This document shows, one piece after another, positions 36,454-43,060 of a stretch of DNA of 64,000 bases. The notes beneath the pieces were generated by a model, which was not told the origin of the DNA, did no database searches, and worked only from the letters and a program-made list of their open reading frames with translations. Position numbers and translations under genes: made by a program. The stretch is from Chloroflexota bacterium (GTDB taxonomy: Bacteria; Chloroflexota; Anaerolineae; Anaerolineales; VGOW01), in the NCBI GenBank assembly GCA_016875735.1, contig VGOW01000001.1, positions 62,001-126,000 of the forward strand, in the 5' to 3' direction. Positions within the stretch are counted from its first letter, which is position 1. Every line of letters starts with the position of its first letter.

Positions 36454-36501
36454 GGCGTGATTATCGCCCGGAGGAAGGATGCCTGTCAAACACGTTCCTG
36501 T

Positions 36502-36507
36502 TATACT
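36502..36507 (+). promoter_or_regulatory. Extended -10 element, probable leaderless start of the NarL-type kinase gene
   Basis: CTGT-TATACT with a TGN extension ends seven bases before ATG 36515, so transcription should start at the start codon. It also argues against the in-frame ATG at 36479, which lies upstream of the promoter. Confidence 0.55.
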
Positions 36508-36514
36508 TGCCGCC

Positions 36515-37177
36515 ATGCCCGATCGTGATCTCGCCGCGCGGCGTTTGCTCGAAGTCGCCGAAGAGGAACTCCAGCGCATCGTCCTCGACATTCACGACGG
36601 CCCGGTGCAGAACATGTTTGCCGCCCTCAGCCAACTCTCGCTCCTGCGCGCACGCCTGCCCGCCGACTCCGACCCCGCGCTCAACCGCGCTATCGCTCTG
36701 CTCGAACTGGCGCTCAACGACATTCGCAATTTGCTCGGCGCGTTTCATGCGCCGGAATTCGCCCGCCGCGCCATCGGCGAGATCGTGGAAGACCTCGCCG
36801 TTCAGCACGAAGCCCTCACCGGGGGGACGGCGTCCCTTGAGATCGCGCCGGCACTGCCCGATGTTTCCCTGCCGATTAAAATCGCCGTGTATCGAATCTT
36901 GCAAGAGGCCCTCTCCAACATTCATCGCCACGCCGGGACGGACTCGGCTACCGTGAGAGTGTGGGCCGATGGCGATCGTTTATGCCTCGAGGTGATCGAT
37001 CACGGGCGTGGGTTTCAGCCGCCGCCGCTCAGCGGCCCCGAAGCCACCGAGCGCCACGAGCACATCGGCCTGCGCGGGATGCGCGAACGCGCCGCGTTGG
37101 TGAACGGCGACATCTGCGTGGACAGCCGCCCGGGCGAAGGCACACGAGTGCGGGCGGAGATTCCGATCCATGGCTGA
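36515..37177 (+). CDS. Sensor histidine kinase, NarL/DegS-type (HisKA_3), no sensor domain
   Basis: The protein of about 220 residues is a bare kinase core. The HisKA_3 helix has the phospho-acceptor in IVLDIHDGPVQNMFAALSQL (His27). The ATPase domain has YRILQEALSNIHRHAGTDSA (N box), VIDHGRGFQPP and HIGLRGMRERAALVNGDICV. No membrane helix or sensing domain is present, so it must take its signal from a partner or in the cytoplasm. It overlaps the response regulator by eight bases and lies just upstream of the RuBisCO gene. ATG 36515 was preferred over 36479 because of the promoter position. Confidence 0.88.
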   Translation: MPDRDLAARRLLEVAEEELQRIVLDIHDGPVQNMFAALSQLSLLRARLPADSDPALNRAIALLELALNDIRNLLGAFHAPEFARRAIGEIVEDLAVQHEALTGGTASLEIAPALPDVSLPIKIAVYRILQEALSNIHRHAGTDSATVRVWADGDRLCLEVIDHGRGFQPPPLSGPEATERHEHIGLRGMRERAALVNGDICVDSRPGEGTRVRAEIPIHG

Positions 37178-37793
37178 CGACAAACTCGTGCGCATTGTGC
37201 TGGCCGATGATCATGCCCTCGTGCTCGAAGGGCTGAGCGCACTGCTGGCCGCCGAAAGCGATCTGCGGGTGGTGGCCACCGCCACCGACGGCGAGCGCTT
37301 GCTCGACGCCCTGCACCGCTTCCGCCCCGACGTGGCCGTGATGGATTTGCAAATGCCGTACATGGATGGCCCCACTTGCCTTCGGCGCATTCGCGATGAA
37401 GGCCTGCCCGCGCGCGTGCTGGTGCTCAGCGCCTTTGGCGACGCGCACGCTTTGCGCGCCGCCATCGAAAACGGCGCCGACGGTTTCGCCCTCAAAACCG
37501 ATCCGCCCGCCGCCACACTGCGCGCCATCCGCCAAGTGGCCGCCGGGCAAATGGTCTTTCCGCAAGCCGCGCGCCGCTGGCTCACCCAGCCGCTCACGCC
37601 CGACCCCGACTCGCTCACCGAGCGCGAGGCCGCCGTGCTGGCATTGGTGGCCGAAGGCAAGAGCAACGCCCTCATCGCTCAGACTCTCAACTTGAGCGAG
37701 AACACGGTGAAGTTTCATCTGCGCAACGTGTTCGCCAAATTGGGAGTGGGCAACCGCACCGAAGCCGCCGCGAAATATCGTCAGCGCCCGTAG
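37170..37793 (+). CDS. NarL/FixJ-family response regulator
   Basis: The 207-residue regulator has a receiver domain (VRIVLADDHALVLEGLSALL, phospho-Asp in VAVMDLQMPYMDG, Ser/Ala switch region VLVLSAFGD, Lys in GFALKTDPPA) and a C-terminal LuxR-type HTH (LTEREAAVLALVAEGKSNAL and LSENTVKFHLRNVFAKLGVG). It should be phosphorylated by the overlapping kinase gene at 36515 and bind DNA as a dimer. The RuBisCO gene starts 168 bases downstream on the same strand, making it a candidate target; this is inference from position. Confidence 0.93.
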   Translation: MADDKLVRIVLADDHALVLEGLSALLAAESDLRVVATATDGERLLDALHRFRPDVAVMDLQMPYMDGPTCLRRIRDEGLPARVLVLSAFGDAHALRAAIENGADGFALKTDPPAATLRAIRQVAAGQMVFPQAARRWLTQPLTPDPDSLTEREAAVLALVAEGKSNALIAQTLNLSENTVKFHLRNVFAKLGVGNRTEAAAKYRQRP

Positions 37794-37960: not shown

Positions 37961-39325
37961 GTGACCACCGTTGCCGCCCCACCCGCCGAAGTGAGCGAAA
38001 AATATCAAGCCGGAGTGCGCCCCTACGCGCTCGATTATTACATCCCCGATTACGTTCCCCTCGACACCGATCTGCTGTGCGCCTTTCGCATCACGCCCAA
38101 AGACGGTGTGGACATGATCGAAGCCGCCGCCGCCGTGGCCGCCGAATCGTCCACCGGCACGTGGACGGAAGTTTGGGGCGTGCATCTGATCAACCTCGAC
38201 TTCTACAAGGCAAAGGTGTATCGCATTGAAGGCGATATCGCTTACATTGCCTATCCGCTGGATCTGTTCGAGGAGAACAGCGTCGTCAACATCATGTCGT
38301 CCATCGTCGGCAACGTCTTCGGGTTCAAAGCCGTGGCCGCGTTGCGACTGGAGGATATGCGCATCCCGGTGGCGCTGGTCAAGACATTCCCCGGCCCCAG
38401 TGTCGGCATCTACGACGAGCGAGCGCGACTCAACAAATGGAACCGGCCTCTATTGGGCGGCACGGTCAAGCCCAAACTCGGCCTCTCGGCCAAAGACTAC
38501 TCGACCATCATTTACGAATGCCTGATGGGCGGGATGGATATGAGCAAGGACGACGAAAACATGAACAGCCAGCCATTCAACCGCTGGCGAGATCGCTTCC
38601 TGTACGGGATGGATGCAGTCAAACGCGCCGAGGCCGAAACGAGCGAAGCCAAAGGCCACTTCTTCAATGTCACGGCTGGCTCCACCAGCGAGGCTTTGCA
38701 ACGCATGGAGTACGCCGCCGCGCAGGGCAGTCGATTCATCATGTACGACTTTATCACCGCAGGTTTTGCCGCCTCTGCCGATGTGTTCAAGCGCGCAACC
38801 GAACTGGGCCTCATCGTCCACTGCCATCGGGCCATGCACGCCGTCATGAGCCGCCAAAAGAATCACGGCATTCACATGCGCGTCTTCGCCAAATGGCTGC
38901 GGCTGACGGGCGGCGATCATCTGCACACGGGCACGGTGCTGGGCAAACTCGAAGGCTCGAAAGTCGAAACGCTCGGCATCATCGATTTGTTGCGCGAGCG
39001 CGTTACCCCTGCCAACCCGGAGCGTGGCTTGTGCTTCGAGCAGGACTTCGCCGGGCTGAAGACGATTTGGCCGGTGGCCTCGGGCGGCATTCACGTCATG
39101 CACATCCCCGAACTGCACCGGATCTACGGCAACGACTCGATCTGGCAATTCGGCGGCGGCACACACGGCCACCCACGCGGCAGCCGCGCCGGGGCGCGCG
39201 CCAACCGAGTCGCCATCGAAGCCGTCGTCTCCGGCCAAACGATTGAGCAGGCGGCGGGCGCCTGCCCAGAGCTGAGAGAAGCCATCGATCTGTGGGGCAG
39301 TGTCGAATTTGAAGTATCCGAGTAG
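37961..39325 (+). CDS. cbbL: RuBisCO large subunit, form I lineage without adjacent small subunit
   Basis: The 454-residue protein has all active-site elements: TGTWTEVW (Thr/Trp of the N-domain), GNVFGFKAVAALRLEDMRIP (Asn), GGTVKPKLGLS (Lys170, Lys172), the carbamylated lysine in MSKDDEN (Lys196), HCHRAMHAV (His287, Arg), GGDHLHTGTVLGKLEG with loop-6 Lys329, PVASGGIHVMH and FGGGTHGHP. It carboxylates ribulose-1,5-bisphosphate. Start GTG 37961 is set by AAGGAG eight bases before; the frame is open upstream but not coding. Sequence features place it with form I-type enzymes rather than form II or III. No rbcS follows: the next 74 bases are a repeat and then phosphoribulokinase. That matches small-subunit-less form I' (or I'') enzymes known from Chloroflexota. 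Confidence 0.95.
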   Translation: MTTVAAPPAEVSEKYQAGVRPYALDYYIPDYVPLDTDLLCAFRITPKDGVDMIEAAAAVAAESSTGTWTEVWGVHLINLDFYKAKVYRIEGDIAYIAYPLDLFEENSVVNIMSSIVGNVFGFKAVAALRLEDMRIPVALVKTFPGPSVGIYDERARLNKWNRPLLGGTVKPKLGLSAKDYSTIIYECLMGGMDMSKDDENMNSQPFNRWRDRFLYGMDAVKRAEAETSEAKGHFFNVTAGSTSEALQRMEYAAAQGSRFIMYDFITAGFAASADVFKRATELGLIVHCHRAMHAVMSRQKNHGIHMRVFAKWLRLTGGDHLHTGTVLGKLEGSKVETLGIIDLLRERVTPANPERGLCFEQDFAGLKTIWPVASGGIHVMHIPELHRIYGNDSIWQFGGGTHGHPRGSRAGARANRVAIEAVVSGQTIEQAAGACPELREAIDLWGSVEFEVSE

Positions 39326-39335
39326 CCCCATTGCA

Positions 39336-39388
39336 GATTTGAGATTCCAGATCGCAGATTGCAAATCCGCGATCTGAAATCTCAGATC
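39336..39388. repeat. Quasi-palindrome between RuBisCO and phosphoribulokinase genes
   Basis: GATTTGAGATTCCAGATCGC (39336-39355) and GCGATCTGAAATCTCAGATC (39369-39388) are reverse complements at 18 of 20 positions with a 13-base loop. It fills nearly the whole gap between the two genes and could form a hairpin in their shared mRNA. Confidence 0.65.
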
Positions 39389-39399
39389 TGAAATCACTC

Positions 39400-40389
39400 A
39401 TGACGAGACGCCGCCCCATCATCCTCGGCATCGTTGGCGACAGCGCTGCCGGGAAGAGTACCCTCGCTCGCGGGCTGGTGAACATCCTCGGCGCAGAGCG
39501 CGTGACTCACGTCTGCACCGACGATTACCACCGCTACGACCGCAAAGAGCGGGCCGCTATTGGCATCACGCCCCTGCGCCCCGACTGCAATTACATGGAC
39601 GTGATGGAACTGCACCTCGAGCGCCTGCATTACGGCCAGCCCATCCTCAAGCCCGTGTACGATCACTCCACCGGCTCACTCGTCCGCCCCCACTACATCC
39701 AGCCGCGCGAGTTTGTCATCGTCGAGGGCCTGCTCGGATTTCACTCCGCCGTGTTACGCCAGTTCTACGACGTAAAGGTGTATCTCGACCCGCCCGAAGA
39801 CTTGCGCCGCGTGTGGAAGATCAAGCGCGACACGACCAAACGCGGCTACACTCCCGATCAAGTGCTGGCCGAGCTCGACAAACGGGAAGCCGACTCGCAA
39901 AACTTCATCCGCCCCCAACGCGATCACGCCGACATCGCCGTCCGCTTTTACCCGCCGCTCGGCGCCGCGCCCGAACAAGCCGGGCCCCACCTCAACGTGC
40001 GACTCGTCCTCCGCCCCACCATTCCTCACCCCGACCTCACCTATCTTGTGGATGGCGCGAACCCCACTCCCGGCATCCGGCTGGAACTGGGCCGCGACGG
40101 CGGCCGCCCGGTGGACTTTTTGGAAGTGGATGGCAACGTCACCGCCGAGCACGCCGAGCAAATGGAAGACGCCATTTGGCAACACCTGCCCGACCTTCGT
40201 CCCGTGCGCGAAGACCAATTCGGCGACTATCAAGATCGCACCGAAACGAGGCACAGCCATCCGCTGGCGCTCACGCAACTCTTGCTCACTTACCACCTTC
40301 TGCGCAAATACACCGATGCCGCGCATATACCCTTTGCGCCGCCAGTGGCCGCTCTCAGCCGCCTGCAATCCACACCCCTGCCCGATTGA
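39400..40389 (+). CDS. prk: Phosphoribulokinase
   Basis: The 329-residue kinase has the P-loop GDSAAGKST (residues 13-21), the family block THVCTDDYHRYDRKER with the catalytic Asp, LRPDCNYMDVMELHLERLHY, YDHSTGSLVRPHYIQPREFV and the Walker B-like VIVEGLLGFH. It converts ribulose-5-phosphate to ribulose-1,5-bisphosphate, the RuBisCO substrate. The pairing with the upstream RuBisCO gene, 74 bases away, supports a Calvin-Benson-Bassham role rather than nucleotide salvage. No ribosome binding site is obvious. The length and lack of an extended C-terminal tail fit the cyanobacterial/Chloroflexota-type (class II) enzyme. Confidence 0.95.
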   Translation: MTRRRPIILGIVGDSAAGKSTLARGLVNILGAERVTHVCTDDYHRYDRKERAAIGITPLRPDCNYMDVMELHLERLHYGQPILKPVYDHSTGSLVRPHYIQPREFVIVEGLLGFHSAVLRQFYDVKVYLDPPEDLRRVWKIKRDTTKRGYTPDQVLAELDKREADSQNFIRPQRDHADIAVRFYPPLGAAPEQAGPHLNVRLVLRPTIPHPDLTYLVDGANPTPGIRLELGRDGGRPVDFLEVDGNVTAEHAEQMEDAIWQHLPDLRPVREDQFGDYQDRTETRHSHPLALTQLLLTYHLLRKYTDAAHIPFAPPVAALSRLQSTPLPD

Positions 40390-40431: not shown

Positions 40432-42357
40432 ATGACTCAACGCCACACTCAACCGTCTCTCCGGCGCATCGCCGACATCGTGCATTGGCCTCGTCTGATT
40501 CGCCATCGTAAACTGCTCAGTGAACAGATCGGCCACCTGCGCTGGCAAGTGCCGCTCGCCGCTCTGCTGCTCGTCCTCGCCCACCAAACTATCGAGCACG
40601 TGTGGTTTGCCCAAGCCGAAAGCCTCAACATCACCAGCGAGATCGTGGTGTATGGCTTGGGCGGCCCGCTGGCGCTGTGGCTGGCGTTAGGGTGGATCAA
40701 ACGCAAGATTGCCCTCAACGAAGCCGCCGGAGTCGATCTGGCTCAGGCGCACGATCAACTCACCGGCCTCAACCAGCGCGTTTCTTTTTTGCTCGGCGTG
40801 AGTCAGCGGCTCGGAGAGGCGGCCAACGAGGAGGAACTCGCCTCTCTGTTGCTCCGGCTGCCGGAGGAGATCGCGCCGTCGGTGATCGGGTGTTCGCTCA
40901 TCCGCTTCGACGATCACCATCAACCCATGCCCGTCGTGTATCACGGCAAGGTGGACGAAGCGGCGCTGGTAGAATGGCATCGGCATCTTTCATCGCGCGC
41001 CATCCGCCGACGATGCGAATCGTGCGGCGTGCGTTCGCCGCAGATCATGCGCAACAAAGCATGCCCGCTTCTGTCGCACACCCCTGCTCCGGCTGTTGGC
41101 GGCGTCGCCTGCTTTTCATTGGAGCGCAACAGCCGCGAGTTTGGAATTTTGGGAGTGTTCTTGGCCGAAGGCGTGGCGCTGACCGAGGACGAACAGACTC
41201 TGTTGGAAGCCGTCATCAACGAAACATCCCTCGCCTTCGAGAACACCCGCCTGCGCACGCGCGAGCTAACCACGCTGTACGAGATCAACGAATCACTGCA
41301 ACTGCGGCTCGGCTTTGACGGGTTGATGTCGCGCATCCTCGCTCGCACGCTCGAAGCCAGCCGCGCCGACGCCGGGCTGATGATGCTGCAAAACGCCGAC
41401 GGCTCGCTCGACACGTGCGCCACCGCCGGAGACTGGAACAGCATCGGGCACATGCCGCTCATCGAAAGCCTCGCCGCCGGCGCACTGCGGCAGGCCAACG
41501 GCGAACCTATTGTGGCCACCCTCTCGCCGAGAGGGATTCCCGAGTCGAAGGCGGAGGCCGCCTCGGTGTTGTGCGCGCCGATGATGGCAGACGAGGGGCC
41601 TCTGGGGGTAATCGTGCTGGGTAGCCAACGACACGACGCCTTTGTGCAAGCGCAGGTGAGATTCGTATCGGCCATAGCCGCCGAGGCCGCCCTGCTGGCG
41701 CACAACGTCCGCCTGTATGCTCAGCTCGAACACCAAGCCATCCTCGCCGAGCGGGGCCGCCTCGCCCGCGAGATGCACGATGGACTGGCGCAAACGCTAG
41801 GCTTCATCAAGATGCGCGCCGGGCAAATCGCTCACTGGATTGAAGCCGGGCATTCGGAACGATCGGTGGGCGCGATGCGTGATCTGGCTCAAAACGCGAA
41901 CGACGCCTACCTCGATCTGCGCGCCACCCTCGACGGGCTCCGACTCTCCCTCGACACCCATCATAACGGCGACTTCGCCGCGCAGCTCCAACGGTGCGCC
42001 GCCGACTTCGAGCAACAGACCGGTCTCGCCGTCTCGCTCGCGCTCGACACGCAGGCCGCGCCCCTGCTCTCCGTCTCGGCGCAGTCTCACCTCTTGCGCA
42101 TCGTCCAAGAGACGCTCGCCAACATTCGCAAGCACGCCAACGCCTCGCGCATCGCCATCCGGCTCACCGTCGAAAACAACCGCGCCTGCCTGCGCATCGA
42201 AGATGACGGGCAGGGTTTCGACGCCGGGCAGGACATGCCCGACACCCGGCACGGCCTCCGGCTCATGCGCGAACGCACCGACCTGCTCGGCGCAGACCTG
42301 CAAATAACCAGCGCGCCCGGCGAAGGCACGCGCGTTTGTGTGGAGTGGCCCGTGTAG
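40432..42357 (+). CDS. Membrane sensor histidine kinase with GAF domains (NarL-type partner)
   Basis: The 641-residue protein has two membrane helices near residues 38-55 and 68-86, a short coiled segment, and two GAF-like regions (about 115-280 and 295-425). The first GAF contains a cysteine cluster, RRRCESCGVRSPQ and NKACPLLS, that could bind a metal or sense redox. The HisKA_3 helix has His449 in REMHDGLAQTLGFIK, and the ATPase domain has RIVQETLANIRKHANASRIA, EDDGQGFDAG and GLRLMRERTDLLGADLQI. A TTATAT box lies about 20 bases before ATG 40432. The regulator at 42416 is its likely partner. It stands directly after phosphoribulokinase. Confidence 0.88.
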   Translation: MTQRHTQPSLRRIADIVHWPRLIRHRKLLSEQIGHLRWQVPLAALLLVLAHQTIEHVWFAQAESLNITSEIVVYGLGGPLALWLALGWIKRKIALNEAAGVDLAQAHDQLTGLNQRVSFLLGVSQRLGEAANEEELASLLLRLPEEIAPSVIGCSLIRFDDHHQPMPVVYHGKVDEAALVEWHRHLSSRAIRRRCESCGVRSPQIMRNKACPLLSHTPAPAVGGVACFSLERNSREFGILGVFLAEGVALTEDEQTLLEAVINETSLAFENTRLRTRELTTLYEINESLQLRLGFDGLMSRILARTLEASRADAGLMMLQNADGSLDTCATAGDWNSIGHMPLIESLAAGALRQANGEPIVATLSPRGIPESKAEAASVLCAPMMADEGPLGVIVLGSQRHDAFVQAQVRFVSAIAAEAALLAHNVRLYAQLEHQAILAERGRLAREMHDGLAQTLGFIKMRAGQIAHWIEAGHSERSVGAMRDLAQNANDAYLDLRATLDGLRLSLDTHHNGDFAAQLQRCAADFEQQTGLAVSLALDTQAAPLLSVSAQSHLLRIVQETLANIRKHANASRIAIRLTVENNRACLRIEDDGQGFDAGQDMPDTRHGLRLMRERTDLLGADLQITSAPGEGTRVCVEWPV

Positions 42358-42415
42358 CAGATAGCGATCAGCAATCAGCAATTTGCCACCTGCCACTTGC
42401 TACCTCTCCTCAACC

Positions 42416-43060
42416 ATGATCCGCCTCCTCATCGCCGACGACCACACCCTCTTCCGCCGAGGGCTGATCAGCCTGCTCAACGAGAGCAACGAATTCACTG
42501 TGGTTGGCGAGGCCACCAGCGGCCCCGAAGCCGTGCGGCTGGCCGGCCAACTGCGCCCCGATGTGTTGCTGATGGATATTCACATGCCCGGCGGCAACGG
42601 AGTGGAGGCGTTGAAGCAATTGCGCGAAACCATGCCCTCTCTGCCGGTCATCATGCTCACCATCTCCGAAAGCGACGCCGATCTGCTCGACGCCATTCGC
42701 GCTGGAGCGCGCGGCTACTTTCTCAAAAACGCCGAAACCGAAGAACTCTTCGACGCACTACGCAAAGCCCCGCTGGGCCACGCCGCGCTCGACCCGTCGC
42801 TTGTCCCCACCGTCTTCCGGCAGCTTGCCCACGCCCCCATCGAACCAGCCAAAGTTGAAACGCCCCTCAGCATCCGCGAAACCGAGATACTGCAACTGAT
42901 CGCCGAAGGCTGTATCAACCGCGAGATCGCCGCCCGCCTCAGCGTGTCCGAGAACACCATCAAGACTCACGTCGGCCGCATCCTCGAAAAACTCGATACA
43001 ACCAATCGCAATGAAGCCGTCGCGCTAGCCCGCGCCCGTGGCTGGATCATGGGCGGCTAA
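42416..43060 (+). CDS. NarL/FixJ-family response regulator
   Basis: The 214-residue regulator comprises a receiver domain (MIRLLIADDHTLFRRGLISL, phospho-Asp in VLLMDIHMPGGNG, Thr in VIMLTISE, Lys in GYFLKNAE) and a LuxR-type HTH (LSIRETEILQLIAEGCINRE and LSVSENTIKTHVGRILEKLD). ATG 42416 begins exactly at the receiver domain. It follows the GAF kinase gene by 58 bases, the gap being filled by a repeat with ATAGCGATCAGCAATCAGC. It converges on the beta-propeller gene with only eight bases between stops. Confidence 0.92.
   Translation: MIRLLIADDHTLFRRGLISLLNESNEFTVVGEATSGPEAVRLAGQLRPDVLLMDIHMPGGNGVEALKQLRETMPSLPVIMLTISESDADLLDAIRAGARGYFLKNAETEELFDALRKAPLGHAALDPSLVPTVFRQLAHAPIEPAKVETPLSIRETEILQLIAEGCINREIAARLSVSENTIKTHVGRILEKLDTTNRNEAVALARARGWIMGG

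Follow-up and report, generated by a model that had tools for sequence, protein, structure and literature searches.

Form I' RuBisCO was first described from Anaerolineales (PMC9833052). According to two later accounts (PMC9833052, PMC10135865), the enzymes of Banda et al. (2020) come from non-phototrophic Anaerolineales and form an L8 octamer that is held by extra dimer–dimer contacts. Forms I-alpha and I'' are further clades without the small-subunit gene, rbcS (PMC12999727), and in a 2025 survey 12 of the 18 form I' enzymes tried were soluble on expression (PMC12663927). Form I' enzymes show how an octameric rubisco works prior to small-subunit dependence. In ancestral enzymes, the substitutions R269W, E271R and L273N make the octamer dependent on the small subunit, and G158C and L192I do the same for catalysis (PMC11696622). 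The gene analysed here lies in a 64,000-nucleotide stretch of DNA (the window) from the same kind of host. Because form I' is already published, the gene adds a member to a known clade and is not a new form.

A form I' large subunit next to prk

The large-subunit gene (rbcL, 454 amino acids) occupies 37961..39325 on the + strand. It has a GTG start at 37961, with AAGGAG a few bases 5' of it, and its stop is at 39325. The product matched the NCBIfam model for the RuBisCO large subunit (620 bits, cut-off 438). A first-pass annotation of this DNA had reported catalytic residues of the form I type, and every motif that it named was found; the motifs present are GGTVKPK (166), KDDEN (196), HCHRAMH (287), TGTVLGKLEG (323), ASGGIH (373) and FGGGTHGHP (397), and all carboxylase active-site motifs are intact. 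A form IV RuBisCO-like protein was considered as its identity and rejected, as the active-site motifs are intact and the scores fell far under the cut-offs of the NCBIfam MtnW and OiaX models.

Compared with solved structures, the protein was closest to 6URA, a form I' RuBisCO from Ca. Promineofilum breve (Banda et al. 2020; 789 bits, 76% identical), followed by small-subunit-free ancestral enzymes (about 730 bits), 8U66 (666 bits) and natural canonical form I enzymes (572 bits and lower). Its nearest named relatives are from Anaerolineales/Chloroflexi, and its host is of the same class, Anaerolineae, as the genome in which the 6URA gene is found. Both loci lack rbcS and have prk next to rbcL. 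They differ in that prk is only 53% identical between them, and in that a two-component pair lies upstream in the window and none does in Promineofilum.

A maximum likelihood tree of 59 large subunits (LG+C20, PMSF) placed the window gene in an I' clade that has 6URA nested inside it (support 100/99). There it is sister to L007 (Anaerolineales bacterium SJ338, 82% identical; support 99/91), and these two make up the first split of the clade, the other branch of which has a support of 99/99. The canonical form I clade (100/100) excludes the window gene, and the I' clade keeps 99/99 when the distant form III outgroup is left out. Constraining the gene to the canonical side, where I' and canonical form I part, was rejected only marginally (p 0.042), as expected because it belongs to the earliest I' branch. 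The first-pass annotation had wavered between form I', form I'' and something deeper; in this tree, built without named I'' or I-alpha references, the window gene is a form I' RuBisCO. As a member of the earliest-branching I' lineage found here, it helps to break up the long branch that leads to the ancestor shared by forms I and I', and it sharpens ancestral reconstruction.

The tree also contained several other rubiscos. L034/L089 (G104), which has 65% identity to the window protein, lacks rbcS, is linked to prk and sits on a long branch just outside form I'. Its placement is unsure (support 82-86/12-22), grouping with canonical form I was not rejected (p 0.20), and it may be a deep lineage of its own or form I''. 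L063/L102 (G402) and L074/L103 (G553), from other Chloroflexota, are short proteins of about 440 amino acids, also rbcS-less and prk-linked, at the base of the tree; these are probably I-alpha or I''. L050 (G536) and L051 (G672) are basal form I enzymes accompanied by rbcS; they share 61% identity with the window protein, branch near the canonical base and may match the published I-Anaero clade.

Absence of the small subunit

A PF00101 profile search of the whole 4.15-Mb genome (97.8% complete) gave no match, while the positive control, Synechococcus, did. A profile of our own made from Anaerolineae RbcS found nothing in the 64-kb window with flanking contig pieces, or in roughly 1.8 Mb of the genome. 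The absence of an rbcS-like frame from the 64 kb, noted in the first-pass annotation, is thereby borne out. The rbcL locus lies at about 100 kb within a contig of 210 kb, which leaves no contig end that could hide a neighbouring rbcS; about 2% of the genome, which is not closed, may be missing. Two further RuBisCO-fold genes, at C56 and C28, look form IV-like and unlike carboxylases. The former scored best against MtnW-type structures and is flanked by a sugar-isomerase-like and an E1-alpha-like gene, and the latter adjoins a transketolase-like subunit (neighbours named by eye from sequence).

A survey of 396 genomes of the same class gave a consistent picture. An I'-like large subunit (66-100% identical to that of the window) was present in 15 genomes, none of which had rbcS. 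A canonical large subunit (54-57% identical) was present in 17, and 16 of these had rbcS; in the 17th, the locus stops at a contig edge. At I' loci prk lies 0-273 bases downstream of rbcL without an rbcS, wherever the flank reaches that far, and at canonical loci rbcS lies a short way 3' of rbcL.

The protein itself also lacks the residues tied to small-subunit dependence. To the sites named above we added 170 and 437, which differ among the ancestral variants deposited as 7QSX, 7QSZ and 7QVI. Canonical form I rows have N170, W269, R271 and N273 in 36 of 36 cases; the corresponding residues of the window protein are D179, R278, T280 and L282. At sites 158 and 192, which concern catalysis, and at 437 it has G167, M201 and A434, so that the canonical small-subunit-linked majority state occurs at 0 of the 7 compared sites. 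Site 271 alone is not decisive because 6 of 19 I' proteins have R there, and G167 is to be read with caution, as G occurs at site 158 in a few canonical rows, too. The window protein resembles AncL and AncL+7 (7QSV, 7QSX; Schulz et al.), in which the small subunit is unneeded, as it most likely is here, in the non-dependent R269 and L273; it differs in being natural, in lacking their 12-residue C-terminal insert and in having T rather than E at site 271. With canonical form I (L8S8) it has the catalytic motifs in common and, in related genomes, the operon slot, but the window locus has neither rbcS nor the majority canonical states at the dependence sites.

In one genome, G648, a canonical-clade large subunit (L052/L088) has the dependence states at 170, 269, 271 and 273, and no rbcS was found in the 20 kb around it.

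Two other identities were weighed against form I'. The clades I'' and I-alpha, too, are without rbcS (PMC12999727), and the tree holds no named reference of either, membership having been judged against 6URA and unnamed deep rows. By that comparison the gene is nested in I': its clade encloses 6URA (100/99), L063 and L074, deeper-branching rows without rbcS that may themselves be I'' or I-alpha, lie outside it, and L034 falls just outside. We therefore regard membership of I'' or I-alpha, or of a lineage deeper than I', as very improbable. It is even harder to believe that the gene product is a large subunit of canonical form I in need of a partner, with rbcS recently lost or lying in an unassembled part of the genome. 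The incomplete, unclosed assembly leaves some room for this, and L052 shows that canonical-clade rbcL genes without a linked rbcS exist. Against it, the window gene lies outside the canonical clade (100/100), canonical loci have rbcS close behind rbcL whereas this mid-contig locus has prk there, the small-subunit-dependence states are missing from the protein, and rbcS is absent from all 15 I' genomes. The first-pass annotation had itself raised an rbcS elsewhere in the genome, and a position inside canonical form I with the small-subunit residues kept; the PF00101 search gave no sign of the former, nor the tree and sites of the latter. Form I' thus remains the identity of the window gene.

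Proposed exchange of rubisco forms within a shared cluster

The gene after rbcL is prk and not rbcS, as the first-pass annotation had read it. It encodes a phosphoribulokinase of 329 amino acids (39400..40389, + strand; NCBIfam 422 bits, cut-off 236). The 74 bases between the genes (39326..39399, + strand) contain no rbcS and, again as first described, only a hairpin: they fold as one strong, imperfect structure (-34.6 kcal/mol, z -7.3), which may have a stabilising or an attenuating role between rbcL and prk. Membership of a repeat family was not supported for this hairpin, since loose matches were few and mostly inside the hairpin itself.

In related genomes, rubisco and prk belong to a conserved cluster with a two-component pair (HK1-RR1), fba and glpX, and the rubisco slot of this cluster holds either form I' or an rbcS-bearing canonical form I. 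The order is HK1-RR1-fba-glpX-rbcL(I')-prk-tkt in L007 and HK1-RR1-fba-glpX-rbcL-rbcS-prk, with a canonical rubisco, in G179, which is from the window's own order; the genes common to both clusters are 72-75% identical in DNA. The window prk shares 74-78% identity with the prk genes of several canonical clusters, but 51-59% with those of Promineofilum and certain further I' genomes. Mapped on the prk tree, rubisco form switches at least 4 times on well-supported branches, and a single I' clade is rejected (AU p 1.8e-11). Within one genus, the prk genes of G184 (I') and G247 (canonical) are sisters (100/99), and each lies on the same contig as its own rubisco.

The simplest reading of this mismatch between the prk and rubisco sequences would be that the rubisco module was exchanged inside the cluster, although transfer of prk may account for it instead. 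Module exchange leads us to a broader proposal, which we hold to be somewhat more probable than its opposite: that the rubisco module of Anaerolineae is an exchangeable cassette, in which I' and canonical forms have been swapped several times in place, within a conserved Calvin-cycle cluster that has its own HisKA_3/LuxR regulator and the same prk. The occurrence of either version in the same slot of a cluster shared among relatives looks new. If the proposal is true, congeneric pairs would be natural experiments, each against a single genetic background, on gain or loss of the small subunit. With L8-type or L8S8-type enzymes at the same position, beside the same prk and regulator, the benefit of the small subunit to the cell could be tested in close relatives.

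Two observations concern neighbouring genes in these genomes. In the rubisco-less congener G340 an M17 peptidase-UDG block is conserved with respect to the window, and the G340 contig stops soon after it. In L013/L095, glpX is in two pieces upstream of a form I' rbcL (offsets -690 and -434); a near relative, L012, has a full-length glpX at this position, and the split gene looks like a decaying pseudogene.

Flanking two-component systems

Upstream of rbcL are HK1, a HisKA_3/HATPase_c histidine kinase (36479..37177, + strand), and RR1, the LuxR-type response regulator paired with it, which overlaps its end (37170..37793, + strand). Orthologs of the pair precede the form I' rubisco of L007, L008, L010, L011, L012, L013, L014, L015, G194 and G378, and the canonical rubisco of G052, G278, G050, G200, G247 and G179; none was found near rubisco in Promineofilum, G358, G388 or family f7. 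RR1 orthologs are 56-81% identical, compared with only about 36% for the response regulator of the second pair (RR2). By a hand count, uncorrected for relatedness, 20 of 32 rubisco genomes had a strong RR1 match, against 27 of 364 others. We regard HK1-RR1 as a candidate regulator for the Calvin-cycle clusters of Anaerolineae with both rubisco forms. Its use as a marker of form I' was rejected, as the pair also adjoins canonical operons. The loci where the pair adjoins a Calvin-cycle cluster include L098, L101, L108, L112, L113, L116, L119 and L120.

The second pair (40435-43060) lies directly 3' of prk and consists of HK2, a GAF-HisKA_3 histidine kinase (40435..42357, + strand), and RR2, its LuxR-type response regulator (42383..43060, + strand). 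This linkage is not kept in most relatives.

Proposed function and metabolic setting

We consider it highly likely that the product of the window gene is a form I' RuBisCO with catalytic competence, most likely an L8 enzyme without RbcS, that would serve in a prk-linked Calvin-type cycle. The sequence, the tree position, the absence of rbcS, the presence of prk, glpX and tkt, and the conserved neighbours were all established by computation. We infer carboxylase activity, and the enzyme is probably an L8 octamer. Four L2 dimers would assemble into the octamer through large-subunit contacts only, and solubility, assembly and catalysis would all be achieved without RbcS. Phosphoribulokinase from the adjacent gene would form RuBP for RuBisCO to carboxylate; rbcL and prk can be seen as the specific steps of a Calvin-type cycle because the prk product supplies the RuBP substrate. 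The upstream HK1-RR1 pair probably controls the cluster. The genome also encodes, away from the rbcL locus, glpX (C23) and a transketolase, tkt (C59), and it encodes a [NiFe] hydrogenase that could supply electrons for CO2 fixation. We only infer CO2 fixation in vivo and autotrophy of the host: of the cycle genes searched for in addition to rbcL and prk, glpX and tkt are present, and a class II aldolase (PF01116) gave no match in the genome.

An active form I' enzyme might instead work in carbon or nucleotide salvage or in redox balancing, without autotrophy. The missing class II aldolase match and the one congener without rubisco fit this, and many Anaerolineae are heterotrophic. The position of prk immediately 3' of rbcL, the retention of fba, glpX and tkt in the cluster of relatives, and the presence of glpX, tkt and the hydrogenase in the window genome itself speak for the Calvin-type role, and we regard salvage or redox balancing as unlikely.

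A [NiFe] hydrogenase large subunit of this genome (G000:C6:79841-81376, - strand; L152:2782-4500, - strand) contains two in-frame TGA codons. Their positions coincide exactly with the two cysteine codons of the L1 motif near the N terminus (RI*GV*TTVH for RxCGxCT); the C-terminal DPCMACGVH is intact and the operon is otherwise complete. The TGA codons may be a sequencing or assembly error, or the enzyme may have selenocysteine at both L1 positions, unlike classic [NiFeSe] enzymes. The roughly 1.8 Mb of genome read gave neither selB nor tRNA-Sec; a selA gene lies at G000:C26, and its product is 45% identical to E. coli SelA.
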